In this document: positions 14,069-32,291 of the stretch, one piece after another
Layout: every line of letters starts with the position of its first letter
Numbering within the stretch: the stretch's first letter is position 1
Assembly (NCBI GenBank): GCA_003054655.1
Contig: QAYZ01000015.1
Span: forward strand, 124,001-188,000
DNA from: Spartobacteria bacterium LR76
Lineage (GTDB): Bacteria > Verrucomicrobiota > Verrucomicrobiia > Chthoniobacterales > Terrimicrobiaceae
DNA length: 64,000 nt
Reading direction: 5' to 3'
Program-made: the position numbers and the translations under genes
The notes under the pieces: model-generated
Databases searched by the model: none
Told to the model about the DNA's origin: nothing
Seen by the model: only the letters and a program-made list of their open reading frames with translations

Positions 14069-14075
14069 GATGAGA

Positions 14076-14381: not shown

Positions 14382-14396
14382 TGGTAAAATTTGCGA

Positions 14397-15689: not shown

Positions 15690-17074
15690 AGATAGGAATA
15701 CCCGACGGTTGATTTCTCCTGCTTGCGGGCGAGGAAGGTGTTGACGATCTGGTCGTAGAACTGCTGGGCACCGCGATAGCCGACATGCAGCACACGCTGG
15801 CCGCCGAGGCGGTCGTGGATGGGGAATCCAGCGTGCACGAGCGGGATGTCGAGGGCGCGAGCCATGCCGTACCCCTTGCTGTTGCCAATAAGCACGTCGG
15901 GCTTGAGTTCCTTGCCCAGCGCGTCGATGTCGGCAAAATCCATATTGTCACGGACCATGCAGGTCGACGGCAATTCCGGCACGGCCACGCGGAGCGCGGT
16001 CGGGAAATGCTCCGACTTGCCGCCGCTCGCGCAGAGCACCGGCTCGACGCCGATTTCGCAAAGAAAGGACGTGAGACCGATCACCAGATCCGCCTCGCCG
16101 TAAACCACGGCCCGCTTGCCAAAGACCACCTTGTGCGCGTCGACCATGGAATCGAGCAACCGACCGCGCTCCGCCGTGATGGCCGGCGGACAGGGCCGGC
16201 CCGAGATGCGCTCCAGAGCCTGAATCATCGCCTCGGTGGCGCGCAATCCGATCGGCGTGCCGAGGTTTTCACGCACAACGCCGAATCGCTCCGCCAGATT
16301 CGTCGCGGCCGTGCGCCGAGTGAAGCGAAGCGTGTCCCCAAACTCCAGCGTTGCGCGTGCGCCGGACATCCGGCGAATCGCCTCGACGCTCGTCCCGCCC
16401 TCCGGCAGCGCCTCGTAATCCATCCACGTCGGGCCGTCCAGCGTGTCACTGTAGTCCGGCAGCATCGTGACAGGTAATCCGAAAGCTTCGACCAGTTCGC
16501 GCAGATGTCTCAGATCCGCAGTGGAGAGCATGCCAGGCAGCAGGTTCACACCCCCATGCGGATCGGGAGGCAATACGAGCTGGTCGATCAATGCCGTGAC
16601 GGCATCGTGAAATCCATCAATGTGCGATCCGCGATAGCTGGCGGTCGAGACATGCACGACCGGCGGCAGGTCCGGGATGGCGCGGCGGCAATCCAGAAGC
16701 AGAGCCGCCATGTCCTCGCCGATGGTCTCGCTCAGGCAGGTCGTAGCCACGCCGATGAGGGCGGGCTTGTATTGACGCGAGACGTTCTTGAGTCCCGCGT
16801 GCAGATTCTTCGCTCCGCCGAAAACGGCAGAGTCCTCGTTGAAATTCGACGCTGCGATGTCCATCGGCTCGCGGAAATGGCTGATGAGATACCGCCGGAT
16901 GTAGGTCGAGCAGCCCTGCGAGCCATGCAGGAAGGGAATCGCACCCTCGATACCGCGAAAGACCAGACACGCGCCGAGCGGCGTGCAGAGTTTACAAGCG
17001 TTGCGAGTCGCAGCAGTGCAGTGCGAGAGATCAGGCGCCTTCGGCTCCTCGGTGAGTGAAAATTCCTCAATCAT
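15686..17074 (-). CDS. nifN: Nitrogenase cofactor scaffold subunit NifN
   Basis: A 462-aa NifK-like subunit of the NifEN scaffold on which NifB-co is matured. It has the family stretches HGSQGCSTYIRRYLISHFRE, TTCLSETIGED and the C-terminal HAGFPIHDRLGGQR. The start at 17074 overlaps the nifE stop by 4 bases (ATGA); the longer frame to 17125 lies inside nifE. The end overlaps nifB by 4 bases. Placement directly after nifE separates it from nifK. Confidence 0.95.
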   Translation of the reverse strand: MIEEFSLTEEPKAPDLSHCTAATRNACKLCTPLGACLVFRGIEGAIPFLHGSQGCSTYIRRYLISHFREPMDIAASNFNEDSAVFGGAKNLHAGLKNVSRQYKPALIGVATTCLSETIGEDMAALLLDCRRAIPDLPPVVHVSTASYRGSHIDGFHDAVTALIDQLVLPPDPHGGVNLLPGMLSTADLRHLRELVEAFGLPVTMLPDYSDTLDGPTWMDYEALPEGGTSVEAIRRMSGARATLEFGDTLRFTRRTAATNLAERFGVVRENLGTPIGLRATEAMIQALERISGRPCPPAITAERGRLLDSMVDAHKVVFGKRAVVYGEADLVIGLTSFLCEIGVEPVLCASGGKSEHFPTALRVAVPELPSTCMVRDNMDFADIDALGKELKPDVLIGNSKGYGMARALDIPLVHAGFPIHDRLGGQRVLHVGYRGAQQFYDQIVNTFLARKQEKSTVGYSYL

Positions 17075-18447
17075 GCCGCCATCCTCTCCTGTTTGCGATT
17101 GGCGCGGCGCGGCACGTAGTTCCACACCGGGCTCATGACGGAGGCGTGCACCTCCTTGGCGAAGTTCAGCATACCTTCGAACCCGGCCAGCGCCTCCTTG
17201 CGCTCATGATTGTGGTCGCAGAAGCCGATGCCGAGCTTGTAGGCGATCGGGCGCTCCTTCACGCCGCCAATGAAGAGATCGACATCCTTCTCAAGGCAGA
17301 ACTTGGCGAGTTCGAGCGGATTGGAATCATCCACGATCACCGTGCCGGGATCGCAGAGTTCCTTGAGCTGTTCGTAATCCTGCGGGTTGCCCGTCTGCGA
17401 CCCGACGAGTACCGTCCGCATGCCGAGGCTACGGAGAGCGCGGACGAGGGAAAACGCCTTGAAAGCCCCGCCAACGTAGATGGCGGCCTTTTTGCCCTTG
17501 AGGATTTTGCGATACCGGCGCAGCTCGGGCTGGATCTTCAGGAGTTCCTGCTTCACCAGGTCGCGGGCGCGGCTTTCGATCTCGGGATCGCCGAAGACTC
17601 CGGCCGCGCCGTAGATCGCCGCCGCCGTGTCCTCGATGCCAAAGAAGGAGATGCGTTGAAAAGGGATGCCGTACTCGTCGTTGAGTCGCTTGGCCAGATG
17701 GGTCATCGAGCCGGAGCACTGGACGAGATTGAGCTTTGCACCATGGCAGCGGCGAATCTCATCCACCCGTCCATCTCCCGAGATGCAGGAGACGACCTGG
17801 ATGCCGATACGGCGGAAGTAGTCCTTCATGATCCAGGTCTCGCCGGCAATGTTGAATTCCCCGAGAAGGTTGATGCTGTGCGGCGAGATGCCGCTGATGT
17901 CTCCGGTGCCGATGAGTTTGTAAATGGCTTCGCAGGCGGCGCGATAGCCGTCCTTCTTGGTTCCGCTGAAGCCAGGGCTCTCGACCGGGATGACCGGGAT
18001 GCCTGCCTCTTTTGAAATGGTTTTGCACACCGCGTCCACGTCATCACCGATCAGCCCGGTGATGCACGTGGAGTAAACGAATGCCGCCTTGGGAGAACAC
18101 GCGGCGATCAGTTCACGGAGAGCGGCGGCGAGCTTCTTTTCCCCTCCGAAGATGACGTCTTTCTCCTGGAGATCGGTCGAGAAGCTGTTGCGATGAAGCT
18201 GCGGCCCGCTGGAGTGGGCCCCGCGAATGTCCCAGGTGTACGCGGCGCACCCGATGGGGCCGTGGACGACATGGAGGGCATCCGCTATGGGATAAAGAAC
18301 AACGCGCGACCCGCAGAAAACGCAGGCGCGCTGGCTCACCGAACCCGCCGCGCTGCGCTTGCCACAGGCGATCTCGGCCGCGCCCTCTCCCTTGCGGAAG
18401 ACCTGATTGCGGCGTTCTTCGAGGATCTCGATGTCGTCGTGCGGCAT
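17071..18447 (-). CDS. nifE: Nitrogenase cofactor scaffold subunit NifE
   Basis: A 458-aa NifD paralogue that pairs with NifN. It carries the Cys residues for the NifEN cluster in CVFCGSRVVLYPIADALHVV, HGPIGCAAYTWDIRG and YSTCITGLIGDD. The FeMo-co-site segment is diverged, as expected for a scaffold, and the C-terminal ENYxxVPRR-like end is NYVPRRANRK. It lies 35 bases after nifK and overlaps nifN by ATGA. Confidence 0.95.
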   Translation of the reverse strand: MPHDDIEILEERRNQVFRKGEGAAEIACGKRSAAGSVSQRACVFCGSRVVLYPIADALHVVHGPIGCAAYTWDIRGAHSSGPQLHRNSFSTDLQEKDVIFGGEKKLAAALRELIAACSPKAAFVYSTCITGLIGDDVDAVCKTISKEAGIPVIPVESPGFSGTKKDGYRAACEAIYKLIGTGDISGISPHSINLLGEFNIAGETWIMKDYFRRIGIQVVSCISGDGRVDEIRRCHGAKLNLVQCSGSMTHLAKRLNDEYGIPFQRISFFGIEDTAAAIYGAAGVFGDPEIESRARDLVKQELLKIQPELRRYRKILKGKKAAIYVGGAFKAFSLVRALRSLGMRTVLVGSQTGNPQDYEQLKELCDPGTVIVDDSNPLELAKFCLEKDVDLFIGGVKERPIAYKLGIGFCDHNHERKEALAGFEGMLNFAKEVHASVMSPVWNYVPRRANRKQERMAA

Positions 18448-18482
18448 GGCAGCAGGCGGGTTGGTGCTCCTTCAGATGGCTA

Positions 18483-19856
18483 TTACTGGACGAGTTCGAA
18501 CCACTCCTCGGGACAGGTGCGGTCGCGCTGGTCGAGCAGTGCGTCGCTGATCTTCTCCACGAGATGCATGGCGCCGCGATAGCCCACGGTCGGGAAGAGC
18601 CGGTGACCGACGCGGTCCAGGATCGGGAACCCGAAGCGGACGAGCGGGATATTCTCGGCGCGACCGATGTGCTTGCCGTAGGTGTTGCCCAGGATGAGCT
18701 TCACCGGATCGGCCTTGATGCGCTCGTGCAATTCGAAGAGGTCTCCCTGCTGTTTCACGATGGCATCGGGGAAACGACCGTCGAGGATCGCATTCACGCG
18801 ATTCTCAAAGGCCCGGCCCGTTGCGCCGGAGAAGATATACTTCGGCTTGAGGCCCAGCTCGATGGCAAAGCGGGTCATGGCCACCACGTGGTCGGGATCG
18901 CCAAAGATGGCAACCGGCACCTCGTGGAAGTACTGACCGATATCCTGGATCACATCCAGGAGGCGACCGCGCTCCGCGTCGATCGAGGCCGGTACATCCA
19001 CCTCGGCAATGCGGCGCAGGGCGTCGATGTAGAGATCTGTGTTGGTGAGGCCGATCGGAGCATCGAGCGCCTCGAAGGGCACTCCGCACTTGTCGTTGAG
19101 CTTCTGCGCGGCAGGATGAGCGGTGAACTCGCCGAGCGCGACCGTCTTGATGGCGTCGCCCATGCGCTTGATCGCCTCCACCGGAGTGCCACCCTTCGGG
19201 TACATCTCGTAGACACCAGTCTGGGGCAGGTCGAGGACGTCGGATGTATCCGGGCAGAGCGTGTACTTCACCCCCAGCTCGTCGGCGAGCCTCTTCAGCT
19301 CGCGCATGTCGCTGGGGTCGAGCCAGCCGGGGAAGATGTTGATCGCGTCCGTGCTCTCGCCGGTTTTCTCGGCGAGGTAGTTCACGATGCCCACACACAT
19401 GTTCGAGTAGCCGGTCACGTTGGAACCGACAAAACTCGGGGTGTTGGCGTGGATGACGGTCTTACCCTCGGGGATTTTGCCTTCCTCGCGGGCCTTCTTG
19501 ATGATGGTCGGGATGTCGTCTCCGATGACCTCGGAGAGGCAGGTGGTGTGCACCGCCACGACTTCCGGATTGTAGATCGAGAAGATGTTGATGAGCGCCT
19601 GCTGGAGGTTCGCCATGCCGCCGAACACGGAGGCACCCTCCGTGAAGGAGCTGGTGGTTGCCGCCACCGGTTCCTTGAAGTGACGCGTGAGATGGCTGCG
19701 ATGATACGCACAGCATCCCTGCGAACCGTGGCTGTGCGGCATGCAGCTATGGATGCCCAGGGCCGCGTACATGGCGCCGATCGGCTGGCATGTCTTGGCC
19801 GGGTTGATCTTCAGCGCGCTGCGCTCGCTGATAGTGGGTGTGGCTAAGTCTAACAT
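18483..19856 (-). CDS. nifK: Nitrogenase MoFe protein beta chain NifK
   Basis: A 457-aa beta subunit. The P-cluster ligands are visible: Cys23 (KTCQPIGA), Cys48 (GSQGCCAYHRSH) and Cys106 (TTCLSEVIGDD), plus the serine of TPSFVGSNVTGY. It starts only ~20 residues before the first ligand, lacking the ~50-residue N-terminal extension of Azotobacter-type NifK. That short form is typical of Group II (clostridial-like) enzymes and goes with the insertion seen in NifD. It lies 36 bases after nifD. Confidence 0.97.
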   Translation of the reverse strand: MLDLATPTISERSALKINPAKTCQPIGAMYAALGIHSCMPHSHGSQGCCAYHRSHLTRHFKEPVAATTSSFTEGASVFGGMANLQQALINIFSIYNPEVVAVHTTCLSEVIGDDIPTIIKKAREEGKIPEGKTVIHANTPSFVGSNVTGYSNMCVGIVNYLAEKTGESTDAINIFPGWLDPSDMRELKRLADELGVKYTLCPDTSDVLDLPQTGVYEMYPKGGTPVEAIKRMGDAIKTVALGEFTAHPAAQKLNDKCGVPFEALDAPIGLTNTDLYIDALRRIAEVDVPASIDAERGRLLDVIQDIGQYFHEVPVAIFGDPDHVVAMTRFAIELGLKPKYIFSGATGRAFENRVNAILDGRFPDAIVKQQGDLFELHERIKADPVKLILGNTYGKHIGRAENIPLVRFGFPILDRVGHRLFPTVGYRGAMHLVEKISDALLDQRDRTCPEEWFELVQ

Positions 19857-19892
19857 GGAATTAGGTTTCCTTAAGTGTTGAGCTGATGCCGG

Positions 19893-21560
19893 TCAGGCGG
19901 CCTTTTGTTCCTCTGCCGGAGCTTCCGTGGCTGCGGCCTTGCGATCCTTGACCCAGGGCGGCACGACGTAGCTCCAAACCTTGGTCGAGAGCATGCGGTC
20001 GATCTCCTTGTAGAAGTTGATCGCACCCGCGAAGGACGCGTAAGGTCCACCGTAGTCGTAGGAGTGGAGCTGCTTGCAGGGCACGCCCATCTTTTCGATG
20101 ATGAACTTGTCCTTGATGCCGGAGCCGATGATGTCGGGCTTCCAGGTCTTGATCAGGTGCTCCAGCTCGTGATGGCTGATGTCGTCGATGACGAGCGCAC
20201 GCTTCTTCATCTCGCGCATCATTCCGAGGTAATCGGAGAAGGCGAACCCTGCGTCGATGAGCTTCTGCTTTGCCTCGGGCGAGATGCGCGGGCGGAAGCG
20301 GGTTTCATCGGGTTCCACGTCGAGTTCCTCAATGTTGCGGCTGTCGGCGTCGACCTTGATGTTGGGCAGCACGTCGCGGCCCTCGTAGTCGTCGCGGTGA
20401 GCGAACTCATAGCCGGCAGAGACCGTCTCGATGCCGATGTCGCCAAAGAGATCCTGGTAGTGGTGGGCGCGGGAACCGCCAACGAAGATGGCGGCCTTCT
20501 TGCCCTGGTGCTTGGCCTTGATCTCGGCCTGGATCGGGCGCAGCACGGCGAGTTCCGCCGCGATGACCTCCTCGACCCGGTCCATGAGTTCCTTGTCGTC
20601 AAAGTACTTCGCAATCTTGCGAAGCGACTTGGCGGTGGAATCCGCGCCGATGAAGTTCACCTTGAACCACGGGATGCCGAATTTCGTCTCCATCATCTCC
20701 GCCATGTAGTTGATCGAGCGGTGGCACATGACCACGTTGAGATCGGCCTGATGGCAGTTGATGATTTCGTCGTAGGACACGCCGCCGCTGAGGGTGGCGA
20801 GGATCGAGATGCCGCACTTCTTCAGCAGTTCGTCGATGGCCCAGGCGTCGCCGCCGATGTTGTACTCGCCAAGGATGTTGATCTTGTACTTGGCGTCGTT
20901 GGGCGTGTCGTCGAGGCCGATCATGTGCTTGAACACACCGTTGTTGGCGATGTGGTGGCCGGCGGATTGACTGACCCCCTTGTACCCTTCGCAGGAGAAG
21001 CCAAAGACATTGATGCCGAGCTCCTCCTTGGCCTGGCGGCAGACACTGTGAATGTCATCGCCGATGAGGCCGACCGGACACGTGGCATAGACCGAGATGG
21101 CCTTGGGCTTGAAGAGCCGGTAGGCCTCGCGGATCGCCTCGGCGAGGCGCTTCTCGCCGCCGAAGACGATGTGGTCTTCCTGCATGTCGGTGGTCATGCA
21201 GTATTGCATGTAGTTCGTCTGACCCTCCGGTACGCGGGCGAGGTTGCGCCGCGTCATCCACGAGTAGTACCCGCAGCCCACGGGGCCGTGGGTGATGTGC
21301 AGGATGTCGTGGATGGGACCGATGACAACGCCCCGGCAGCCCGCATACGTACACCCGCGCTGGGTGATGATGCCCGGGATGGTGCGGGAGTTCGCACCGA
21401 TTTCCGGCGGCGTCTCGGGATCGTTCGGCACGATCTGCTTTGCGCGTTTGCGCAGGGTCTTCGAGGGCAGGCCCTTGAGCATCTGCTCGCGCAGAGCGTC
21501 AGGCGTTACGCCCTCGACTTCTTCGATGGTTCCTGTCGGGATCGTTGCTTCGGTCGACAT
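19893..21560 (-). CDS. nifD: Nitrogenase MoFe protein alpha chain NifD
   Basis: A 555-aa alpha subunit. P-cluster ligands are Cys70, Cys96 and Cys161. FeMo-co ligands are Cys279 (MCHRSINY) and His499 (LHSYDYGGPY). Gln198 and His202 (GVSQSAGHH), and Val78 at the substrate-gate position, are all conserved. An extra stretch at about residues 393-440 (GRDVLPNIKVDADSRNIEEL region) matches the ~50-residue insertion of Group II nitrogenases. No delta subunit follows, so this is the Mo rather than the V or Fe-only enzyme. It lies 9 bases after nifH, with no nifI genes between. Confidence 0.97.
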   Translation of the reverse strand: MSTEATIPTGTIEEVEGVTPDALREQMLKGLPSKTLRKRAKQIVPNDPETPPEIGANSRTIPGIITQRGCTYAGCRGVVIGPIHDILHITHGPVGCGYYSWMTRRNLARVPEGQTNYMQYCMTTDMQEDHIVFGGEKRLAEAIREAYRLFKPKAISVYATCPVGLIGDDIHSVCRQAKEELGINVFGFSCEGYKGVSQSAGHHIANNGVFKHMIGLDDTPNDAKYKINILGEYNIGGDAWAIDELLKKCGISILATLSGGVSYDEIINCHQADLNVVMCHRSINYMAEMMETKFGIPWFKVNFIGADSTAKSLRKIAKYFDDKELMDRVEEVIAAELAVLRPIQAEIKAKHQGKKAAIFVGGSRAHHYQDLFGDIGIETVSAGYEFAHRDDYEGRDVLPNIKVDADSRNIEELDVEPDETRFRPRISPEAKQKLIDAGFAFSDYLGMMREMKKRALVIDDISHHELEHLIKTWKPDIIGSGIKDKFIIEKMGVPCKQLHSYDYGGPYASFAGAINFYKEIDRMLSTKVWSYVVPPWVKDRKAAATEAPAEEQKAA

Positions 21561-21569
21561 GATGAGAGA

Positions 21570-22448
<879 letters not shown>

Positions 22449-22450
22449 TT

Positions 22451-22468
22451 AATCACACCGCGTGCCAA
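22451..22468 (-). promoter_or_regulatory. Candidate sigma-54 (-24/-12-like) promoter of nifH
   Basis: Read on the minus strand: TTGGCACGCGGTGTGATT. The -24 half TTGGCAC is perfect. At the -12 position GTGAT replaces TTGCA, so the invariant GC is GA. The implied start of transcription is about 45-50 bases before nifH ATG 22394. The presence of NifA, a GAFTGA-bearing sigma-54 activator, supports it. No TGT-N10-ACA NifA site was found in 22395-22620. Confidence 0.5.
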
Positions 22469-22572
22469 GGTCGGCCTGCTCGGCGACGCCCCGCAGCAAC
22501 ACCGCCCGGATGATTGCTAATGAATCACTTAGGAACACTGTCGTTCACTTGCGCAGCGTTAGCGCAAAATTG

Positions 22573-22598
22573 CGATTCCTACAGAAATGTAGGAATCG
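22573..22598 (-). terminator. Perfect hairpin between draG and nifH, probable draTG terminator
   Basis: CGATTCCTACA (22573-22583) and TGTAGGAATCG (22588-22598) form an 11-bp perfect stem around a 4-base centre. On the minus strand it begins 12 bases after the draG stop and is followed by CAATTTTG, a weak T tract. It would separate nifA-draT-draG transcription from nifH. A smaller hairpin, TTGCGC/GCGCAA around AGCGTTA, follows immediately. Confidence 0.55.
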
Positions 22599-22609
22599 GG
22601 AATTACGAC

Positions 22610-23554
22610 CTACGCGAATGTAGGAAGTTTCCGCAGCCGGACGAGGATCTCGTCAAGAATAGGGCGTCCGCGAAGGTGCTCACGCCATTCGGCAGGGATG
22701 CCTGTCCGTCCGAAGCGGATTCCCGCGATGCCGCCAGCGAGGCAGGCGGTCGTATCCGTGTCGTTGCCGAGAGCCACGGCGGCGATCACGACATTTCGGT
22801 AGGAATTCTCACCGCAGGCTGCCCGGGCCGAGTGCAGCGAGTCGACGACATAGCCAGTGCCGCCGGGTGTTTCGGTGGAGGCTGGCAATACAACCTCCCG
22901 CAACTCCCGCCGATGGGCGAGGCTGTTGGCGTAGAGTACATCCAGATCGGCTGCCGCGCGGTCCCAGGCATTCTCGACGCCCGCGAGCTCCCGACGCGCC
23001 CAGAGGCAATACAGGGCGCAGCACACCTGCGAGCGCGGATGCGCATGCGTGATGGCGCACTGTTCATGAGCCACGGCCACGAGGCGGGCATCGGAGCCCT
23101 CCAGGAGCAGCGCCAACGGGAGCGAACGCATCAAGCCGCCATTTCCGTTATTGCGCTCTCCGGCCAGGCCCGACTCATATGGGGTGGCCCCGGCGGAGAG
23201 ACGCCGCAAAGCTTCGCCCGTCTGGATGCCGATATCGAAGACCTTCCCATCCGCCGCGAGATACCCGCGACTGGCCCAGGCAAGAAGCTTGCGGGAAAAA
23301 TGGTAGGGGTCCCAGTCGCGTCGCTCGATCAGCGACTCCACCAGGCAGAGCGCCTGCGCGCCGTCGTCCGACCACGTGCCGCAGGGCACATGGGCGTAAC
23401 TGCGGGAAAAAGAAGGCGGGGGAAACATGTCGATGTCCTCCCTCGGAGGCAGTTCCCTGGCGTGATGAAACTCATAGGGCACGCCCACGGCGTCGCCCAC
23501 CAGCAACCCCCAAAGTCCACCCTCGATCTTCTCCAATACGCCTTCCTTCATCAA
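22610..23554 (-). CDS. draG: ADP-ribosyl-[dinitrogen reductase] hydrolase DraG
   Basis: A 314-aa glycohydrolase that removes ADP-ribose from the NifH arginine and restores nitrogenase activity. Family metal-site motifs are GLLVGDAVGVPYEF at the N-terminus, TWSDDGAQ, and ALGNDTDTTACLAGGIAG near the C-terminus, which provide the dinuclear metal ligands. Two in-frame Met codons (23554, 23551) are possible starts. It overlaps draT by ATGA and lies directly upstream of nifH on the same strand. The draT linkage makes DraG the best call over a generic family member. Confidence 0.92.
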   Translation of the reverse strand: MMKEGVLEKIEGGLWGLLVGDAVGVPYEFHHARELPPREDIDMFPPPSFSRSYAHVPCGTWSDDGAQALCLVESLIERRDWDPYHFSRKLLAWASRGYLAADGKVFDIGIQTGEALRRLSAGATPYESGLAGERNNGNGGLMRSLPLALLLEGSDARLVAVAHEQCAITHAHPRSQVCCALYCLWARRELAGVENAWDRAAADLDVLYANSLAHRRELREVVLPASTETPGGTGYVVDSLHSARAACGENSYRNVVIAAVALGNDTDTTACLAGGIAGIRFGRTGIPAEWREHLRGRPILDEILVRLRKLPTFA

Positions 23555-24348
23555 TAAAGCAGCCGCCGCACGCGGTATTCCCCGCCGATTACCAGATACT
23601 CCTGCTCGCCGCGCAGGATGCTATCCGGCAGGAGGTCGCTAAAGAAAAAGATTTTGCCCAGCGGGATGCGCGCCTCCCAGACGGTCGACCCAAACTCCCA
23701 CGCGCACTCGCGGTCGGAGGTGAAGGACGAGATGTTGTTCATGCGCACGACCGGCTCGCCGGGTACGGGGTCCGGCATTTCCTGATACCCCGCCGCATCG
23801 TACGTGCCCCGATAAAGCGTGATCCAGCGTTCGCCGGGATGGCGGCGGGCGAGTTCATACTGGCAGAATTCAAAAAGCAGATCGAGCTGCGAGTCGATGG
23901 CATTGGTGCGCGCACTGCCCTTGATGCGATCGGCCGAGTAGGCGGTGATCCGGTCCTGGTCGTCGGCCAGCGGGCCATTGTGAAACGTGGGCGGCATGCC
24001 GAGCCGGCTGTGCACCCATCCCTTCAGCACCGCGCCCTCGATGGAATTGGAATCCACCGACCAGCCGCGCAAATAACGCACGTAGCTGTTTCGCAGGCTG
24101 CTGCGGGCAGCCTTCTCGTAGTGCTCCCACTGGTGCAGGGCGAACTGCACCGAGATATACTCGTGAAAAATCTCCCCCCTCCGCGTAGCGCTCGGCTCGG
24201 CATCGAGCAGAGCAAAGAGGCGTTTGTTGTCCTCCCGCACACGGCCGATGTGCAAGGCGGTGGGATCATCCTGGAAATCCACCGACGCGATGGCCCAGGG
24301 CGGACGGTTGCAGAGAGAGAAGACGTTGAGATGGGGGGGAACGGACAC
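23551..24348 (-). CDS. draT: NAD(+)-dinitrogen-reductase ADP-ribosyltransferase DraT
   Basis: A 265-aa protein that inactivates NifH by transferring ADP-ribose from NAD to its Arg97 when nitrogen or energy status changes. Characteristic stretches include SNSIEGAVLKGWVHSRLGMP, WITLYRGTYDA (NAD-site Arg) and ISSFTSDRECAWEFGSTVWE, with an EQEYLVIGGEYRV end. Its stop overlaps draG and it begins 12 bases after nifA, so activation and shut-off components are co-transcribed. Confidence 0.94.
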   Translation of the reverse strand: MSVPPHLNVFSLCNRPPWAIASVDFQDDPTALHIGRVREDNKRLFALLDAEPSATRRGEIFHEYISVQFALHQWEHYEKAARSSLRNSYVRYLRGWSVDSNSIEGAVLKGWVHSRLGMPPTFHNGPLADDQDRITAYSADRIKGSARTNAIDSQLDLLFEFCQYELARRHPGERWITLYRGTYDAAGYQEMPDPVPGEPVVRMNNISSFTSDRECAWEFGSTVWEARIPLGKIFFFSDLLPDSILRGEQEYLVIGGEYRVRRLLY

Positions 24349-24360
24349 GGCAGGAAAGAC

Positions 24361-26025
24361 TTATGGACGAAAACCTCGCGGATCTATGCCGTATTTTTTG
24401 ACACGCAATCCCACCACCCTCTCGGTGAGCCCGAGATGCCGGGCGACGGCAGCCATGTTGCCTTTGTGTGTCTTGAGCGCTTCGATGAGAAACTCGCGCT
24501 CCACGCCGTGGATCGCCGCTTTCATCTTCGACTCCTCGACCGGCTGACTGGACTCGGGCACCTGCAGCGTGGGCGGCAGGTGCCAGCCATGGATCACATC
24601 CTCGGTGGCAAGCAGGGTGGCTCGCTCGATGCAATTCTCAAGTTCGCGCACATTGCCCGGCCAATGGTAGCTCATGAGCATGTCGATGGCCGAGGTGGAT
24701 ATCCGTTTGATGCTCTTGCCGTTGGCGATGCTGTACTTCTCGACGAAGAAATCGGCGAGCTGCAGGATATCCGTCTTTCGCTCCCGCAGCGACGGCACGT
24801 AGATCGGGAATACATTCAGGCGGTAATACAAGTCCTCGCGAAACCGCCCCTGCTCAACGAACTCCTCCAGCGAGCGGTTCGTCGCAGCGATCACGCGTAC
24901 GTCACAGCGCAGCGTCTCGGTCCCCCCCACCCGCTCAAACTCCTTTTCCTGCAGGATGCGAAGCAGCTTGGCCTGGGTCTGGAGCGGCAGTTCGCCCACC
25001 TCGTCGAGGAAGATCGTTCCGCGATGGGCCAGCTCAAATCGCCCCTTGCGCATGGCGATGGCTCCGGTGAAGGCCCCCCGCTCATGGCCAAACAGCTCGC
25101 TCTCCACGATGCTCTCTGGCAGCGCGGCGCAGTTGATCTTCACGAAGGGCTTGCCCACGCGCGGGCTGCGCTCATGCACGGCATGCGCGACGAGTTCCTT
25201 GCCCACTCCGCTCTCACCGCGGATCAGCACCGTAGTGTTGCTCGCCGCCACCTGCTCGATCGAGTGGTAGACGGTCTGCATGACTCGCGAGTTTCCGATG
25301 ATGTTGTCGGGACGGAAGTGGCGCTTAAGCTGCTCCTGGAGTCGCTCATTCTCCTGGCGAAAATAATCGATCTGCTCGTGGGCGCGCTGCCGTTGTTTCA
25401 CGGCCTGGGCGATCATCTGCGCAATGAGCGTAAGCAGACGCAGATCGGCCTGCAGGGAAACGACCGTCTTGCTGCGGCTGATCACGCTGAGCGTACCGAG
25501 GATCTCATTGGCCCGCGCCACCGGCACACAGATGAAGGCCCCCCGGCCCTGCGAGAGCACTCTCCAGTCCACGGTCGGGATCGCCGACCCGTGCACCACA
25601 TGCATGGGCCTGGCGATGTCGGGAATGATCTCGGCCTCGCCCTTCTCGATCACCCGGGCAACGATCTGGTTGAAGCGTTCCGCCTCGTTGCTCGCTATTC
25701 CCCGGGGCACCTCCTGCACCGCCTCGACATGAGCCTCGTTAATGGCACGGTTCAGAATGCGCAAGGTGCCGTTTTGCAGGCCGATCGACTCGGATATCTC
25801 ATGCAGCAATCCGCTCAGGACGTCCTGGAGTTCCCCCCCCTCCTGCAACGTCCGAGCGATGTCAAAAAGGATCTTCAACTCCTGAATGACGCGGCATAAA
25901 GGAGCTGGCAGGTTTGCCAGATCGGCGTTCGAGGGGGGCATCTGCGCGAAGTCGCAGCCCGGACAGCCGTCAGCAATGTCGTTGTAGTCAATGATCGAGC
26001 GATCCGGCCCGATATCCTTATTCAC
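24361..26025 (-). CDS. nifA: Nif-specific sigma-54 activator NifA
   Basis: A 554-aa regulator. The N-terminal tail has a CPGC pair (DGCPGCDFAQ). A GAF domain spans about residues 50-200. The AAA+ domain has Walker A GESGVGKE and the sigma-54-contacting GAFTGA loop. A Fis-type helix-turn-helix ends the protein (NMAAVARHLGLTERVVGLRV). It would activate the nifH promoter and perhaps its own operon. I see no Cys-rich interdomain linker of the oxygen-sensing NifA type. It is first of nifA-draT-draG, with an 11-bp inverted repeat 68-107 bases upstream. Confidence 0.94.
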   Translation of the reverse strand: MNKDIGPDRSIIDYNDIADGCPGCDFAQMPPSNADLANLPAPLCRVIQELKILFDIARTLQEGGELQDVLSGLLHEISESIGLQNGTLRILNRAINEAHVEAVQEVPRGIASNEAERFNQIVARVIEKGEAEIIPDIARPMHVVHGSAIPTVDWRVLSQGRGAFICVPVARANEILGTLSVISRSKTVVSLQADLRLLTLIAQMIAQAVKQRQRAHEQIDYFRQENERLQEQLKRHFRPDNIIGNSRVMQTVYHSIEQVAASNTTVLIRGESGVGKELVAHAVHERSPRVGKPFVKINCAALPESIVESELFGHERGAFTGAIAMRKGRFELAHRGTIFLDEVGELPLQTQAKLLRILQEKEFERVGGTETLRCDVRVIAATNRSLEEFVEQGRFREDLYYRLNVFPIYVPSLRERKTDILQLADFFVEKYSIANGKSIKRISTSAIDMLMSYHWPGNVRELENCIERATLLATEDVIHGWHLPPTLQVPESSQPVEESKMKAAIHGVEREFLIEALKTHKGNMAAVARHLGLTERVVGLRVKKYGIDPRGFRP

Positions 26026-26132: not shown

Positions 26133-26161
26133 ACGCAGCTTCCCTCACCGCGCCCGCCGCC

Positions 26162-27277
26162 TCATGGCGTCAAGACCCGGCCGGTCTCGCCGGTCTCGTA
26201 TCCCGGGATCTGCGAGATGGAACGGACGAACTTCCCGATGGCCAGATGGTCGATCAATGCCTCGAGAAGAGGCTTGCCCAGTTGATCCCGGCGTATCACC
26301 AGGTCAAATGCCACCTGCGACAGCGGGATGAAGTGCAGCCCATAGACCCGGGCAATCGATTCGCAGCCCAGACCCACATCAGCCAGTCCCGTCGCGATCC
26401 GTCGGGCACAGTCCGAGTGGCTCACGGTGATGGATTCGTACCCGGCGATCTCTGCTGCCGGCACGCCGTTGACCTTGAGCATCTCCTCCAGGTGATTGCG
26501 ACACCCGGAACCGGCCTCGCGATTGGCCAGCCGGATGCCTCCTCCGGGTAAATCGCCAAACCCTCGAAAGGCGTTCTCCCAGTTGCGCCCGACCATCCAT
26601 CCCTGCTCCCAGCGGGTGAAGCGCATGATCAGGCAGCTCTTGAGCAAGCCCAGCCGCTTCACTCCCTCGAGGTTGGCGTCGTCGTCCTCTCCAAAATGAA
26701 TTCCCGCGAGATGCACCTCGCCAGCGGCCAGACGCCGGAGGGCCACCGAGCTCCCACAGGGAATCCACACGCATCGCCCTTTCCCCGAGTGCCGCGATGC
26801 CGCTTCACAAAGCAGAGCCAGAGCGGGATCGCAGCCTGCGATAAAGAGATTCTCCGCCAGGTCGGACAAGTCCAGACTCGTTTCCGCAGCCGGGCCATCC
26901 GGTGTTTTCCGCAAAACGGCATCCGAGACCGACAGGCCGGCGCCGATCTTCGCGAGAAGATCGGACTCCCCCGCGATCCATCGCCCGTCGAGTTGCGCGA
27001 GATCCAGCCGCATCCCCTCCTCCGGGGTGTTGCCCACGATATGCACGGGCAGCACCGCAGGCGCCTCCTCTGCACCAAACAGACTCTCGACCGGGCAGTC
27101 CAGGGCACGCGCAAGGCGCAATGCCGTGTCGACTCGTGGAACCACCTGGTTCCGCTCGATTTGATTCAGCGATTGCCGCGTGATCCCTGCCACACGGGCC
27201 AATCCCGCCTGGGTCATATTTCGCCTCGCCCGCAGTTGAACGATGCGTTCCCCCGCTCTTTCGAGACCATCCGACAT
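26162..27277 (-). CDS. XRE-type regulator with periplasmic-binding-like ligand domain (probable Mo/W-responsive)
   Basis: A 371-aa protein. An XRE helix-turn-helix covers about residues 8-65 (NMTQAGLARVAGITRQSLNQ). From about residue 95 there is a binding-protein-like domain (LFIAGCDPALALLCEAASRH; GGGIRLANREAGSGCRNHLE; TVSHSDCARRIATGLADVGL), the PF12727 type often linked to molybdate or tungstate genes. It diverges from the PEP-CTERM/mod operon and borders nifA, and two AT-rich palindromes lie in the shared promoter. It is probably the local substitute for ModE. The ligand is inferred from context. Confidence 0.8.
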   Translation of the reverse strand: MSDGLERAGERIVQLRARRNMTQAGLARVAGITRQSLNQIERNQVVPRVDTALRLARALDCPVESLFGAEEAPAVLPVHIVGNTPEEGMRLDLAQLDGRWIAGESDLLAKIGAGLSVSDAVLRKTPDGPAAETSLDLSDLAENLFIAGCDPALALLCEAASRHSGKGRCVWIPCGSSVALRRLAAGEVHLAGIHFGEDDDANLEGVKRLGLLKSCLIMRFTRWEQGWMVGRNWENAFRGFGDLPGGGIRLANREAGSGCRNHLEEMLKVNGVPAAEIAGYESITVSHSDCARRIATGLADVGLGCESIARVYGLHFIPLSQVAFDLVIRRDQLGKPLLEALIDHLAIGKFVRSISQIPGYETGETGRVLTP

Positions 27278-27349
27278 GGAGGCCGATGCTCCGGAAAGCA
27301 GGAGACAACGTCAAGCACCGTTGACGCATCTCCCTAATATTGACTGATA

Positions 27350-27390
27350 TACTTTTTGCAAAAAGTAGTTTTTGTAAAATAATGTTTACA
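27350..27390. promoter_or_regulatory. Twin AT-rich palindromes between regulator and mod operon
   Basis: TACTTTTTG/CAAAAAGTA forms a perfect 18-bp palindrome at 27350-27367. Directly after it, TGTAAA (27373-27378) and TTTACA (27385-27390) form a second inverted repeat with a 6-base spacer. Both lie in the 244-base divergent region, 73-113 bases upstream of the regulator start. Likely operators for the XRE regulator. Confidence 0.65.
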
Positions 27391-27419
27391 TATTTCCATC
27401 TATTAGATTTTCTTCTTTT

Positions 27420-27521: not shown

Positions 27522-28451
27522 ATGCTGCCAAACAACCAAATACGCGCAGGGTCCGGCCAGGCGGTCGGAGGGTATCTGTCAAAAATAACTGCCGGTCAAC
27601 AATTTCCCAGGTTTCTCACCCTTGCCGCCCTCATCGGGCTATCGGCCACCGTACAAGCCACGGTATTGACATCCGGAACGTTCACCTCCGGAAGCGCCAC
27701 AAGCTGTATGGTCTTCAGCAATGGCACCTCATGGTCGGGAGGTGCTGTGGGAGTGCAAGGCTCCGAAAGCGTCACAACCGGAGGTGGCTCTGCTCTTGCA
27801 GCCAACGTCGCGTTCAAGTTCAACATCGGCTCGTTCATCGACTCGCTCAACAGCACATACGGCAGAGGAAACTGGGCGGTCTCCAATATCCAGCTATCGT
27901 TCCAGTACACGCTGTATGCCAACAAAAACCTGTTCAACTCCGGTGCAGGCACATTCGACATCTACTGGGTTGCTACAGATTCCTGGGTGCCGAATACGTC
28001 CAACCCGACATACGCGACGACCGCGGATGCACTCTCCACCTGGTCCGGTGGCCAGTCCCTGCTCGCCACGGAATACTACGACTGGACGACGCCGGGATAC
28101 ACAGGAACAACTGACGATCTCACATCGGGCCTTTGGGTTACCGACAAAAGCGGCATACGCCAGTCGACCCTTAGCTACGACCTCGGGAGCAACACATCAT
28201 TCCTGGACGACATCCTCACGGCCAGCGCGTCGGGAGATGACAACATCTCGCTCTACCTCATGTCCACCAGCGACTCGCTCGGACTGATTATCTTCACCAG
28301 TGGCACACCGGTCCTCCCGACACTGAGCTTCGATGTGGTGTCGGTTCCCGAGCCGGCAACTTATGCCCTTGCCCTGCTCGGAGCCGGAGCGGCCAGCTTC
28401 CTCCAGCGCAGGCGGCGAGCCGTCACGCCAACTCCGGACGCTCGCTCATAG
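27522..28451 (+). CDS. PEP-CTERM exported protein, first gene of mod operon
   Basis: A 309-aa protein. The N-terminal signal segment is FLTLAALIGLSATVQA. A beta-rich Ser/Thr/Gly body follows (SFIDSLNSTYGRGNWAVSNI; FDIYWVATDSWVPNTSNPT). It ends in a PEP-CTERM sorting signal: VPEPATYALALLGAGAAS, then an Arg cluster. Such signals are cleaved by exosortase and the protein is placed on the outer surface or in the matrix. The body is paralogous to residues ~20-255 of the next product. It opens the operon with modA/modB, and its TAG stop shares one base with the next GTG start. Confidence 0.82.
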   Translation: MLPNNQIRAGSGQAVGGYLSKITAGQQFPRFLTLAALIGLSATVQATVLTSGTFTSGSATSCMVFSNGTSWSGGAVGVQGSESVTTGGGSALAANVAFKFNIGSFIDSLNSTYGRGNWAVSNIQLSFQYTLYANKNLFNSGAGTFDIYWVATDSWVPNTSNPTYATTADALSTWSGGQSLLATEYYDWTTPGYTGTTDDLTSGLWVTDKSGIRQSTLSYDLGSNTSFLDDILTASASGDDNISLYLMSTSDSLGLIIFTSGTPVLPTLSFDVVSVPEPATYALALLGAGAASFLQRRRRAVTPTPDARS

Positions 28452-29977
28452 TGAAGACTCTCGGCTGGATCAGGCTTTTCCTGCTGGCCGGTATCGCTGG
28501 CCTGGCCGCGCCCTCACGCGCGGTCGAGCCAACGGTTTACTCGGACATCTCGAGCAATGACGCCTTCCTTCCCACCGGTTCGCTGGATAATCCCAATACC
28601 GGAGGAGACAATGCCGATCACGACCTGACCGATTGGAACTATGGCGATGCCGGCACTCTCGTCATCGCATCGGGCAATTCCCAGTACGTCGACCCGAACA
28701 CGGGGCAGACGATCAGCAAAGGAGAGTTTCAAAGCGTGATCATGTTCAGCTCCGCCGAGGCCATCACGCTTTTCGACGCGACCTACGGCGCTGGCAACTG
28801 GGTCATCACCTCCATTGCGCTGAGCTTTGCCAGCAACTGGGCCGACGCAGGGGCGATCCCCAACAACCCGATCTTCGGCATGATCCAGGGAGGCGAGTTC
28901 GTCATCGAGTGGCTTTCCGACGACGACTGGGTGCAAGGGACGGGAAATCCCAGCAATCCGACTCAGGATGGAGTCACCTATGATTCGCTCTCCACACTGC
29001 TGGTCAGCGAGCACGAGGTGCTGGGATCATATACCTACGATCCTCCCGGGAGCAGCGTTCGTCTCACGTGGAACCTGCCATTGACCGACAATCTCATCGC
29101 CGACATCTCCGCCGGAGACGACCTCTCCTTCCTGATGTATGCGGGAGATGACACCATCAACTATCTCTTCAACTCGAACCGCTACGGGAACGACAACGAG
29201 CCAAAGATCATCATCACCGCCATCCCGGAGCCATCTGTACTCGGACTTGCCATGGTGGGAGGACTGTTTGCACTCGGCAGGCGCTTTCGCCGCATGGCTT
29301 TCACCCTCCCGGAGGTGCTCGTTGCCATCAGCCTGATCGCCATTGCGGCCAGCGTGACTACCAACTGGATCAACTCCGGGATCGAGAAAGCCCGCGGCAT
29401 CGAATGCACCGGAAATCTCCGGCAATGGGGCGTGGCCTTGCAACTCTACATCCAGGATCACGACGGCTTCCTCCCCCGGCGCGGCCAGGGAGTCCGCCCG
29501 GTGACCGTGATCGACCGCGATGAGGACTGGTTCAACAACCTGCCTCCTTATCTCGAGATGAGTCCATACAAGGAGCTCTACGCCAGGGGGCAGGTGCCCA
29601 GGCCTGGGAGGCGCAGCGTGTTTCTCTGCCCGAGCGCCACGATCCCGGCAGACTGCCAGCATTTCATCAGCTACGGGATGAACATGTACCTCTCGCGCTG
29701 GGACCAGCGGGACGCCAGCCGGATCATGCAGTTGCCCAGGCCGTCGAGCCTCGCCTTCCTGGCCGACTCGCCCGGAGGCTACGCCTCCACGGTGCCCTCG
29801 GGCAGCGAGTACTCGGTCGTCGCGCGCCACTCGGGCGGAGCAAACGTGGTTTTCGTCGACGGCCACGTGCAGAGATTTCCCGGCGGGTACCTCGGCTGCG
29901 GATCAGGAGATATTTCCCAACCCGACGTACGATGGAAGACCGAGGTCGCCGGAGACACTTGGAAGCCCAACCTATGA
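28451..29977 (+). CDS. In-frame fusion: PEP-CTERM protein joined to H-X9-DG prepilin
   Basis: A 508-aa protein from GTG 28451. Residues 1-25 are a signal peptide. Residues ~25-255 are a paralogue of the preceding protein (FDATYGAGNWVITSIALSFA; FVIEWLSDDDWVQGTGNPS). Residues ~258-281 are a complete PEP-CTERM signal (IPEPSVLGLAMVGGLFALG then RRFRR). Residue 282 is Met (29294), beginning a prepilin: MAFTLPEVLVAISLIAIAAS, with Glu at +5 after an Ala/Phe cut. A body with the H-X9-DG motif follows (RHSGGANVVFVDGH). No stop separates the halves. Internal initiation at 29294 is possible but has only a weak upstream GGCAGG. It overlaps the next gene by ATGA. Confidence 0.85.
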   Translation: MKTLGWIRLFLLAGIAGLAAPSRAVEPTVYSDISSNDAFLPTGSLDNPNTGGDNADHDLTDWNYGDAGTLVIASGNSQYVDPNTGQTISKGEFQSVIMFSSAEAITLFDATYGAGNWVITSIALSFASNWADAGAIPNNPIFGMIQGGEFVIEWLSDDDWVQGTGNPSNPTQDGVTYDSLSTLLVSEHEVLGSYTYDPPGSSVRLTWNLPLTDNLIADISAGDDLSFLMYAGDDTINYLFNSNRYGNDNEPKIIITAIPEPSVLGLAMVGGLFALGRRFRRMAFTLPEVLVAISLIAIAASVTTNWINSGIEKARGIECTGNLRQWGVALQLYIQDHDGFLPRRGQGVRPVTVIDRDEDWFNNLPPYLEMSPYKELYARGQVPRPGRRSVFLCPSATIPADCQHFISYGMNMYLSRWDQRDASRIMQLPRPSSLAFLADSPGGYASTVPSGSEYSVVARHSGGANVVFVDGHVQRFPGGYLGCGSGDISQPDVRWKTEVAGDTWKPNL

Positions 29978-30846
29978 AACCACTCCTTCAGCGCAGGCGA
30001 GCCCTCACGCTTCTTGCGGCATCAATCCTGCTCGTCTCGCAGTCGTCGTGCCATCGCAACTCTCCCTCCGCCGCCGATCCAGTCAAGGTCGCCATCATCG
30101 GGGGATTCATGACGACGGGTATGTGGGAGGCGGTCACGGCGGAGTTTACGCGGGAAACCGGGATTCCCGTGGAGGTCGTGAGCACAGGACCCAAGGAAAT
30201 CATCGATACGGCCTTTCGCAAGGGAGGCATTGATCTCATCACCATGCATTCCAGCGATGTGGCGACCAATCTGGTCGCCGACGGCCTGGGGGTCGCCATG
30301 CGCCCCTGGGCGCGCAACGAACTCGTCATCGTCGGTCCGTCGGATGATCCCGCCCGCATTCGCGGTCTGAAGAGCGGCGCGGAAGCCGTGGCACGCATCG
30401 CCGCAGCCAAGGCCTCCTTTGTCGAGGCGCGGAATGTCGGCAGCCAGACGGTCTGCGCTCGCCTGTGGAAGCTCGCGGGCATTCACCCCGAGGGCGGCTG
30501 GCTCATTCCGGACGAAAGCCCGGCGCCGCAACGCGTGGTGGAGTTTGCCTCCGCTCGCCACGCCTACGTGATCGTGGGCCGAATCCCCATGCTCAGCGGC
30601 AAAATCCCCAATGCCGGGATGGAGATCCTCGTCGAGGGCGACCCGGAGATGCGGCGACCGTATGTGGTCATCGAGGCCAATCCCGCGAAGCGGCTGGGAA
30701 ACAATCCGGCAGGCGCAAAAAAGCTCGCCGATTTCCTGACCTCCCCGGCGGGCCAGATCGCTCTCTCCCGGTTTGCCGAACGCCAGGGGGGAAACGCCCC
30801 GATCTTCTATCCCGTAGCACCTGTCAATACAACTCACCAAGGATAA
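29974..30846 (+). CDS. Substrate-binding lipoprotein, probable molybdate/tungstate type
   Basis: A 290-aa protein. The N-terminal signal ends at a lipobox-like SQSSC (Cys26). The body is a periplasmic binding protein of the extracellular PBP family (VKVAIIGGFMTTGMWEAVTA; GPKEIIDTAFRKGGIDLITM; PAGAKKLADFLTSPAGQIAL). It resembles tungstate/molybdate-type binders more than amino-acid binders. Start 29974 overlaps the fusion-gene stop (ATGA), and modA follows after 3 bases, so it is translationally tied to both. Exact ligand uncertain. Confidence 0.75.
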   Translation: MKPLLQRRRALTLLAASILLVSQSSCHRNSPSAADPVKVAIIGGFMTTGMWEAVTAEFTRETGIPVEVVSTGPKEIIDTAFRKGGIDLITMHSSDVATNLVADGLGVAMRPWARNELVIVGPSDDPARIRGLKSGAEAVARIAAAKASFVEARNVGSQTVCARLWKLAGIHPEGGWLIPDESPAPQRVVEFASARHAYVIVGRIPMLSGKIPNAGMEILVEGDPEMRRPYVVIEANPAKRLGNNPAGAKKLADFLTSPAGQIALSRFAERQGGNAPIFYPVAPVNTTHQG

Positions 30847-30849
30847 CCC

Positions 30850-31620
30850 ATGAAACGCCAGATCATCAAATACCTCCTGGGAAGCGCCATCGCCTTCGCC
30901 GCGGCCATTTCCTCCCTCCCAGCCCAGACCATCGTGGTTTCTGCCGCTGCCAGTTTGAAAGAAGCCCTGGCCGATGTGAATGCAGCCTTCTCCGCAAGGA
31001 ATCCCGGCATCGCCATCGACCTGAACCTCGCGGGTTCCGGAGCGCTCCAGCAGCAAATCGAGCAGGGCGCGCCGGTCGATGTCTTCATCTCCGCCGCGAC
31101 CAGGCAGATGGATGCGCTCAACGCCAAGGGACTGCTCCTGGAGGGGTCGGTCTTCGATCTTCTCGGCAACAAGGTCGTGCTGGTCGGTCCTCCGGGCGCC
31201 ACGGCACCCGCCGGCTTTGCCGCCCTGGCCGATGCATCGGTAAAACACATCGCCATCGGTGAACCGGGCAGCGTGCCAGCCGGCCAGTACGCCCAGCAGA
31301 TATTTGCCTTTTACAAGATCACCGAGGCCGTGAAGCCCAAGCTGATTTTTGCCAAGGATGTCCGCATGGTCCTGACGTATGCGGAAACGGGCAATGTCGA
31401 TGCAGGCGTGGTCTACATGACGGATGCAAAGCAATCCGGCAAAGTCGCCATCCTCGCCGAGGCACCCGCAGGGTCGCACGATCCGGTCGTTTATCCCGCG
31501 GCCATCATCAAGACCGCACGCCAACCCGCCGCCGCCCAGACCTATCTCGCCTTCCTGAAATCAACCGAGGCAGCCGAGCTTTTCACCAAGCGGGGGTTTG
31601 AGATACTTACCAAACGCTGA
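30850..31620 (+). CDS. modA: Molybdate ABC transporter binding protein ModA
   Basis: A 256-aa protein. A cleavable signal (GSAIAFAAAISSLPAQT) precedes the ModA start of the mature chain, IVVSAAASLKEALADVNAAF, and the family stretches ALQQQIEQGAPVDVFISAAT and AETGNVDAGVVYMTDAK follow. It binds molybdate or tungstate in the periplasm for the nitrogenase cofactor. Its stop shares one base with the modB start. Confidence 0.92.
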   Translation: MKRQIIKYLLGSAIAFAAAISSLPAQTIVVSAAASLKEALADVNAAFSARNPGIAIDLNLAGSGALQQQIEQGAPVDVFISAATRQMDALNAKGLLLEGSVFDLLGNKVVLVGPPGATAPAGFAALADASVKHIAIGEPGSVPAGQYAQQIFAFYKITEAVKPKLIFAKDVRMVLTYAETGNVDAGVVYMTDAKQSGKVAILAEAPAGSHDPVVYPAAIIKTARQPAAAQTYLAFLKSTEAAELFTKRGFEILTKR

Positions 31621-32285
31621 TGGATACCACGCCGATCTGGTTGAGCCTCAAGACAACCGTCACAGCGACGGCCATCACCTTCGTGCTCGGCATCATTGCC
31701 GCACGCTGGAGATTCGGTGCTCGCGGTCATTGGGTCGGCGTGGTGGATGCCCTGCTACTCCTGCCTCTGGCGCTCCCGCCGACCGTCATCGGCCTCGCGC
31801 TGCTGTTGTTCTTCGGGCGCAACTCACCCGTCGGCGCACTTCTGACGGATATCGGCGTCGACGTCATCTTCTCCTGGCAGGCGACCGTCATCACAGCAGT
31901 GGTCGCCTCGTTTCCGCTGATGTATCAATCCGCCTACGCCGCCTTTCAGCAAATCGACACCGAGCTCCTCGATGTCGGTCGCCTGTACGGCATGAATGAA
32001 TGGCAGCTCCTCTGGCGTGTCATGCTCGCCCTCGCCTGGCCGGGCATCCTCGTCGGCACGATCCTGAGCTTTGTCCGGGCGCTGGGGGAGTTTGGGGCGA
32101 CCCTCATGCTGGCGGGCAGCATTCCCGGCCGTACCCAGACGATTCCCCTCGCCATCTTTTTTCATGTCGAGAGCGGCGAGCTTTATCAGGCTGCCCTGCT
32201 CTCGCTGGTGACGTTGGGGCTCTCTGTCCTCGTGCTCCTGGTGGTGCGCCTGCCACAATCCATGAAGGTGCCGCTTCGCAGGTGA
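31620..32285 (+). CDS. modB: Molybdate ABC transporter permease ModB
   Basis: A 221-aa inner-membrane protein with about five hydrophobic segments. It carries the ModB stretches LPPTVIGLALLLFFGRNSP and DTELLDVGRLYGMNEWQLLW, and the EAA-type loop RALGEFGATLMLAGSIPGRT. Its ATPase partner ModC is not encoded here: the next gene, 6 bases away, is a convergent esterase. The transporter must borrow an ATPase from elsewhere or use a distant modC. Confidence 0.93.
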   Translation: MDTTPIWLSLKTTVTATAITFVLGIIAARWRFGARGHWVGVVDALLLLPLALPPTVIGLALLLFFGRNSPVGALLTDIGVDVIFSWQATVITAVVASFPLMYQSAYAAFQQIDTELLDVGRLYGMNEWQLLWRVMLALAWPGILVGTILSFVRALGEFGATLMLAGSIPGRTQTIPLAIFFHVESGELYQAALLSLVTLGLSVLVLLVVRLPQSMKVPLRR

Positions 32286-32291
32286 CCCGGG

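Follow-up and report, generated by a model that had tools for sequence, protein, structure and literature searches.

Can a single uninterrupted reading frame carry a complete PEP-CTERM sorting signal and, directly behind it, a prepilin signal, and what would such a protein be for? The question is raised by a gene in a stretch of 64,000 nucleotides from Spartobacteria bacterium LR76 (contig QAYZ01000015.1), referred to as the window, within which coordinates are counted unless a contig of the same genome (G000) is named. This gene fuses a PEP-CTERM protein (PEP-B), in frame, with an H-X9-DG prepilin (PIL), and an initial annotation had read the product as a possible polyprotein that delivers a sorted surface protein and a pilin in fixed ratio. 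Our analysis favours, at a probability of roughly 0.58, a two-signal, two-enzyme polyprotein serving oxyanion uptake at the envelope, of which we infer the topology, both cleavages, the product ratio and the metal role.

PEP-CTERM signals are handled by exosortase and prepilin signals by prepilin peptidase, as is well established. The fused gene starts with GTG and runs for 508 codons (508 residues) without an internal stop, and its parts, of which the PEP-CTERM tail follows the anatomy described in excerpts of PMC1569441, are the following:

28451..29977, plus strand: fused gene, PEP-B in frame with PIL (open reading frame (ORF), profile matches, orthologous fusions in two further species, G001 and G002)
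28451..28522, plus strand: N-terminal signal peptide with its hydrophobic core at residues 6-20 (hydropathy; putative boundary)
28523..29221, plus strand: PEP-B body, a beta-sandwich resembling carbohydrate-binding modules (CBMs) for acidic polysaccharides (AlphaFold2 model and structure matches)
29225..29293, plus strand: PEP-CTERM tail with PEP motif, hydrophobic segment and RRFRR (PF07589 match, hydropathy)
29279..29293, plus strand: RRFRR cluster common to both signals, predicted cytoplasmic turn (sequence)
29297..29302, plus strand: predicted prepilin peptidase site A283/F284, with E at +5 (TIGR02532 match, alignment with 12 split pilins)
29300..29974, plus strand: mature pilin part with PRRGQG, DRxxDWFN and H-X9-DG motifs (profile matches, alignment)

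The junction of the protein reads ...IIITAIPEPSVLGLAMVGGLFALGRRFRRMA/FTLPEVLVAISLIAIAASVTTNW (here and below, the slash marks the predicted prepilin cleavage site), and the prepilin signal MA/FTLPE thus follows directly on RRFRR. In a six-frame search PEP-CTERM (PF07589) scored 23.6 bits against a cut-off of 20.7, and it was not listed for the fusion in a whole-protein Pfam scan at E 0.001. The prepilin signal TIGR02532 (21.3 bits versus 16.3), the H-X9-DG model TIGR04294 (27.9 bits versus a domain cut-off of 19) and DUF1559 (PF07596; 35.9 versus 23.3) all exceeded their cut-offs, with Pfam N_methyl slightly below its own (19.2 versus 21.2). ORF analysis and profile matches therefore confirm what had been annotated, namely one stop-free frame with signal peptide, body, RRFRR-ended PEP-CTERM tail, prepilin signal and H-X9-DG pilin. 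A 15-residue hydropathy scan revealed peaks of at least 1.5 at residues 6-20, 262-276 and 289-303, of which the two inner ones lie a dozen residues apart, separated by a stretch that opens with RRFRR. Both signals are accordingly intact and topologically compatible, as annotated, the arginine cluster lying in the sole stretch between the inner hydrophobic segments. The PEP-CTERM region is internal instead of C-terminal, with 227 residues after RRFRR, and the prepilin signal begins at residue 284 instead of behind a short basic N-terminal leader.

Since tails or bodies became misaligned when fused and split proteins were aligned together, PEP-B and the pilin were aligned separately. The pilin part shares 35-59% identity with the 12 split orthologues in the alignment, and within this group PRRGQG is invariant and DRxxDWFN conserved. 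The AlphaFold2 model of the PEP-B body (predicted local distance difference test (pLDDT) score 91.3) matched 8wab (Z 18.7, root-mean-square deviation 2.8, 169 residues aligned) and 7vbo (Z 16.6, deviation 3.4, 171 aligned), the next row of the structure search falling to Z 9.8. These two are CBMs, the first binding chondroitin sulfate and the second alginate, and we take 7vbo to be a CBM96 member. PF24517 was not listed for the fusion in the whole-protein Pfam scan at E 0.001; the gene adjoining the PEP-B homologue in a related locus (L103) matches it. Glycan binding by PEP-B would suit a matrix-attached exosortase substrate, with the proviso that a shared fold alone shows no function. The PIL model had no PDB match at E 0.001.

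Among 58 genomes searched for the fusion, which included two other species of the same genus (G001 and G002), the whole fusion was present in both other species, with 85% (G002) and 84% (G001) identity. The frame is stop-free in all three of the genus species compared, each gene measuring 1527 bases, and the junctions read GRRIRRAA/FTLPE in G002 and GRRIRNTA/FTLPE in G001. A sequencing or assembly error that conceals a stop or frameshift at the junction (near position 29290, as the initial annotation had feared) would be a serious concern where the ancestral pair overlapped at ATGA, so that a one-base change matters. No positive evidence of such an error was found, however, and the agreement of three species, whose genes are equally long and differ at many synonymous sites, means that the fusion is not a sequencing artefact; this reading is refuted for practical purposes. 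The same two species dispose of the other worry voiced earlier, that homologues might always be separate genes, since both carry the same junction.

How the fusion arose can be read from those relatives. In named relatives outside the genus both halves are separate genes, and the PEP-CTERM gene directly precedes the orthologous pilin in 8 of the 12 loci checked for geometry, every one of these adjacent split pairs (8/8) overlapping at ATGA. In a midpoint-rooted tree of 15 pilins, the three fused ones group together (100/99) inside their split relatives. The separate genes, the recurrent overlap and the nested position of the fused clade together indicate that an ATGA-overlapping gene pair was the ancestral state and the fusion the derived one. 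Since the ends of the ancestral pair overlapped, fusion needed a change of frame and not merely the loss of a stop. Within the window genome, a same-strand pilin lies within 300 nucleotides after 11 of the 79 PEP-CTERM matches (with 101 pilin matches; both sets come from 128 scored candidates each and may be lower bounds). Random placement, a control that ignores gene packing, would yield 0.24 such pairs (at most 2 in 1000 runs), and the reverse order occurred 0 times. Three of the 11 pairs are fused.

The window genome in fact carries at least four fusions, three of them common to all three species. Fusion B (C10, a 970-residue frame; L029, G000:C10:457800-463000) is also found in G001 and G002, and fusion E (C11, a 781-residue frame; L160, G000:C11:698500-703500) is 88% identical in G002 and 81% in G001, stop-free in both; the PEP motif of fusion E lies outside the 79 matches, so that it is not among the 11 pairs. 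In both, a long repeat-rich PEP-CTERM protein is joined to an H-X9-DG-type pilin. Fusion D (C15, a 443-residue frame; L082, G000:C15:13800-17800) was found in the window genome, and the matches listed for it in G001 and G002 cover only the pilin part, at no more than 49% identity. Its pilin weakly matches Verru_Chthon cassette protein D, with B- and C-like genes next to it. Fusion C resides in the same-family genome G004. Fusions B, C, D and E all retain the PEP motif and E at +5, and their linkers, though of different lengths, are basic. The very short arginine cluster common to both signals of the window fusion is only one of several solutions, the other fusions having longer basic linkers.

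Stop-free full junctions were listed in 4 of 213 genomes of the order, 3 of 384 of a class sample (G004 not among them) and 1 of 387 of a phylum sample, these samples overlapping. Beyond the window genome, G001, G002 and G004, none was listed in these surveys, whose sensitivity is limited: at most 28, 16 and 15 first-look candidates per genome were scored for order, class and phylum, respectively, and a junction profile built from known fusions may miss further ones. Other junction searches scored at most 23 candidates per genome in one case and at most 150 in the one that listed fusion E, which itself appeared only at E 9.7e-8, beyond the thresholds of the three surveys. A pattern scan of 63 survey loci (L111-L159 and L173-L186), which leaves out stop-free partial matches elsewhere, returned only known fusions and L141. 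The latter, at first sight a stop-free fusion in another family, was a false positive with its "PEP" outside any PEP-CTERM tail, and L163 (G006) proved to be a pilin frame without such a tail. At three sites of the window genome (C12:155k, C12:38k and C2:69k), and likewise in G085, G030 and G093, a single stop codon separates a PEP-CTERM gene from a pilin in the same frame; readthrough at such pairs would give the same architecture. That the fusion evolved several times in one genus is a tentative suggestion, and forms part of a wider reading taken up below.

Whether the fused gene is under selection as a whole bears on the view that one of its halves is defunct and that the join is an accident of a tightly packed operon. 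Over the three species pairs, synonymous divergence (dS) is 0.60-0.88 and the ratio of nonsynonymous to synonymous divergence (dN/dS) is 0.10-0.15 for the whole gene, the pairwise values being 0.13/0.10/0.11 in the PEP-B body and 0.13/0.07/0.07 in the pilin; the signal peptide, with few sites, gives 0.55-0.82. A neutral or decaying fusion would fit the weakly constrained linker and also the rarity of fusions, none further having been listed among the 213, 384 and 387 genomes surveyed, which implies that such proteins work without being fused. The low dN/dS of both bodies in every species pair and the retention of three different fusions in all three species nevertheless make it very improbable.

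A second question is whether ribosomes also start inside the frame and thereby make the prepilin alone. The window gene has in-frame ATG codons at 268 and 282 and a GTG at 269, in G001 a single ATG, ten codons ahead of the pilin Phe, would provide a good leader, and fusion B contains ATG codons at -21 and -19. Anti-Shine-Dalgarno pairing amounts to -5.7 kcal/mol before both the codon-282 ATG and the G001 ATG, slightly stronger than the -2.1 to -5.0 before five starts of the operon. These energies nonetheless lie inside the range of the ORF (mean -3.2, 5th percentile -9.4), and the Shine-Dalgarno pairing is not discriminating; initiation at codon 282 would moreover give a leader of two residues only (MA), neither of them basic. 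In G002 the stretch between the tenth codon ahead of the PEP motif and the +1 Phe of the pilin lacks ATG, GTG and TTG alike, and therefore any usual internal start for a separate prepilin, which rules out such a start as the sole pilin source there as regards these three codons, rare ATT, ATC, ATA or CTG starts being conceivable. Fusion E in the window genome offers GTGs only, the last at -26, and fusion D TTGs only, the last at -16. Taken together, we consider internal initiation quite improbable. The polyprotein as first annotated thus gains from a fusion that is real, conserved in the genus and devoid of a usual internal start in G002; that account had overlooked the derivation from an ATGA pair and the operon setting.

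That setting comprises the following features:

27522..28451, plus strand: PEP-A, upstream PEP-CTERM protein homologous to PEP-B (profile and homology searches)
29974..30846, plus strand: TupA-like substrate-binding protein (start placed by ATGA overlap with the fusion stop)
30850..31620, plus strand: ModA (TIGR01256, 185.5 bits versus 62.5)
31620..32285, plus strand: ModB (TIGR02141, 219.9 bits versus 182.6)
26162..27277, minus strand: divergent regulator with XRE-type helix-turn-helix and PF12727 PBP_like domain (domain scan)
27373..27390, no strand: 18-base inverted repeat TGTAAA-N6-TTTACA between regulator and operon, kept in three species
12902..26025, minus strand: nif cluster of nifV-like, nifB, nifN, nifE, nifK, nifD, nifH, ADP-ribosylglycohydrolase and nifA-like genes (profile models)

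The genes from PEP-A through the fusion and the TupA-like gene to ModA and ModB overlap or nearly touch at their ends (the PEP-A TAG stop shares one base with the fusion GTG start), and they resemble a molybdenum or tungsten uptake operon. Among solved structures, the TupA-like protein matches the tungstate-binding 3lr1 best by sequence (E 9.4e-27); against the NCBIfam TupA equivalog cut-off of 400 it scores 42.5 bits. In the nif cluster, nifB, nifE, nifK, nifD and nifH exceed equivalog cut-offs, with the nifV, nifN and nifA models below theirs. An ADP-ribosylglycohydrolase (PF03747) lies at 22610-23554 between nifH and the nifA-like gene; by a presumed analogy with DraG, it may control nitrogenase. 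The gene after ModB (32292-33662) is on the other strand and resembles an acetyl xylan esterase, not an ATPase, and a molybdate-transporter ATPase was not sought elsewhere. Slightly downstream of the operon, at 33902-34672, is a prepilin-type protein with N_methyl above its cut-off.

The region 27373-27470 holds the inverted repeat and a stretch of about 55 bases that is identical or nearly so in the three species, despite the dS of 0.6-0.9 in the fusion gene, and a similar repeat precedes the PEP-B homologue of locus L101. The repeat is a possible operator and the conserved stretch a possible leader RNA. No Rfam match was obtained in 26000-33000 at E 0.5, and the fold of the leader was no better than that of shuffles (z -0.43). 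Simple patterns revealed no NifA or sigma-54 sites upstream of the operon, a scan that is little informative since NifA and looser sigma-54 patterns also found none upstream of nifH.

The association extends beyond the genus. Across 14 loci from the named-genome search (including L097, the fused locus of G001, and two Planctomycetota, L108 and L109), a PEP-A/PEP-B homologue is present in 12, a TupA-like gene in 11, ModA in 5, ModB in 4, the regulator in 5 (a sixth at 8e-4 only) and nif genes in 2; some loci are short, so that absences are not firm. In L101 the TupA-like gene is on the opposite strand, and in L109 several hundred bases separate it from the pilin. A CBM-like protein, a pilin and a TupA-like gene, in some cases accompanied by ModA or ModB, thus recur together in Verrucomicrobiota and Planctomycetota. 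Two loci (L105:6136-7380 and L106:6534-7574) encode CBM-like proteins with another C-terminal region in place of the PEP-CTERM tail, and the sorting signal of these proteins may therefore be exchangeable.

For the window fusion, we propose that the N-terminal half would be exported by Sec, after which the PEP-CTERM helix would span the inner membrane from outside to inside, RRFRRMA would turn tightly in the cytoplasm and the prepilin helix would pass back out, leaving both bodies outside the cytoplasm. Prepilin peptidase would then cut at A283/F284 from inside and exosortase at PEP from outside, releasing equimolar amounts of a surface-sorted CBM-like protein and a specialised pilin. The gene would have arisen by frame fusion of the ATGA-overlapping pair, and would work within an operon of bacteria of the Planctomycetes-Verrucomicrobia-Chlamydiae (PVC) group that includes a TupA-like binding protein and here also ModA and ModB. 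Its role would be to capture molybdate or tungstate at the envelope, in the present case for nitrogenase, as suggested by the operon and the nif neighbourhood and by analogy with the exoprotein ZepA (see below). Both enzymes that the initial annotation had proposed to look for are encoded: the window genome has one exosortase match (PF09721, 153.4 bits) and one prepilin peptidase ORF of 379 residues with two PF01478 pieces (38.7 and 31.1 bits).

The protein might instead remain uncut, either as a hairpin-anchored, two-headed protein that shows its CBM-like and pilin bodies together or with the pilin carrying the CBM into a pseudopilus. The fusion itself couples both bodies, both are under constraint and differing linker lengths are tolerated, all of which would suit this alternative. 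An uncut linker would not, however, need a PEP motif, nor a prepilin site with its E at +5, and both are kept in every fusion found; the genome also encodes both peptidases. We therefore regard an uncut protein as unlikely.

Several points weigh against the two-enzyme polyprotein that we favour. The prepilin -1 residue is Ala, where Gly is commoner, and the pilin model is poor (pLDDT 61.8). The junction (residues 253-310) is less constrained than the bodies, with a dN/dS of 0.16-0.32, that of the linker (residues 274-283, few sites) reaching 0.28-0.78, and in G001 Asn takes the place of the final Arg of the cluster (RRIRN). Within the DNA examined, the TupA-like gene is absent from 3 of the 14 loci (L102, L103 and L110) and ModA from 9. 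Metal specificity is suggested by homology and neighbourhood, and cleavage into separate products is predicted from the signals. Finally, split-gene relatives presumably do the same job, so that fusion is not needed for it. More tentatively, back-to-back signals for two unrelated peptidases, with several origins, might mark an undescribed PVC envelope system in which a glycan-binding protein and a dedicated pilin feed TupA/ModAB with molybdate or tungstate for nitrogenase, a combination that we consider possible rather than probable.

If the polyprotein reading is true, opposite C-terminal and N-terminal sorting signals share one cytoplasmic turn, and the topology rules of exosortase and prepilin peptidase are put to the test, each enzyme having to tolerate a substrate with an extension on the "wrong" side. 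The protein would also be a Rosetta-stone fusion, linking exosortase-sorted proteins to pilins, a pairing frequent in the window genome (11 versus 0.24 expected) for which we know of no function. The operon suggests a role for large, unexplained pilin families in surface oxyanion capture, here perhaps for nitrogenase. PEP-CTERM proteins, H-X9-DG pilins and models of Verrucomicrobiota prepilin-type cassettes are all known; judged by titles and abstract openings, no report of the in-frame fusion was found among the open-access papers listed, and "Verru_Chthon" did not occur in a subset of 30 of these.

Compared with the PEP-CTERM/exosortase (EpsH) system, the fusion shares the signal peptide, the PEP motif, the hydrophobic segment and the basic cluster, in a genome with an exosortase gene and 79 PEP-CTERM matches, but its PEP-CTERM region is internal. 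With H-X9-DG/DUF1559 prepilins it shares a prepilin signal and H-X9-DG above NCBIfam cut-offs and DUF1559 above the Pfam cut-off, whereas its "leader" is a 283-residue exported protein with a hydrophobic segment of its own. The Verru_Chthon cassettes (TIGR02596, TIGR02598, TIGR02599) are approached by fusion D, whose pilin resembles protein D and whose next two genes resemble B and C, so that a PEP-CTERM protein stands at the head of a row of minor-pseudopilin-like, prepilin-type genes; all these matches are under the curated cut-offs, however, and the pilin of the window fusion has none. ZepA is a PEP-CTERM exoprotein in zinc acquisition with homologues in the PVC group (PMC10957091, in excerpts), and thus a precedent for a PEP-CTERM exoprotein in metal acquisition; it differs in its metal and, in those excerpts, in having no pilin fusion, and is likened here by description and not by homology to PEP-A or PEP-B. 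As in TupABC and ModABC transporters, finally, TupA-like, ModA and ModB proteins are encoded in one operon, by genes whose ends overlap or nearly touch, but the operon described here opens with two PEP-CTERM CBM-like proteins and a pilin.

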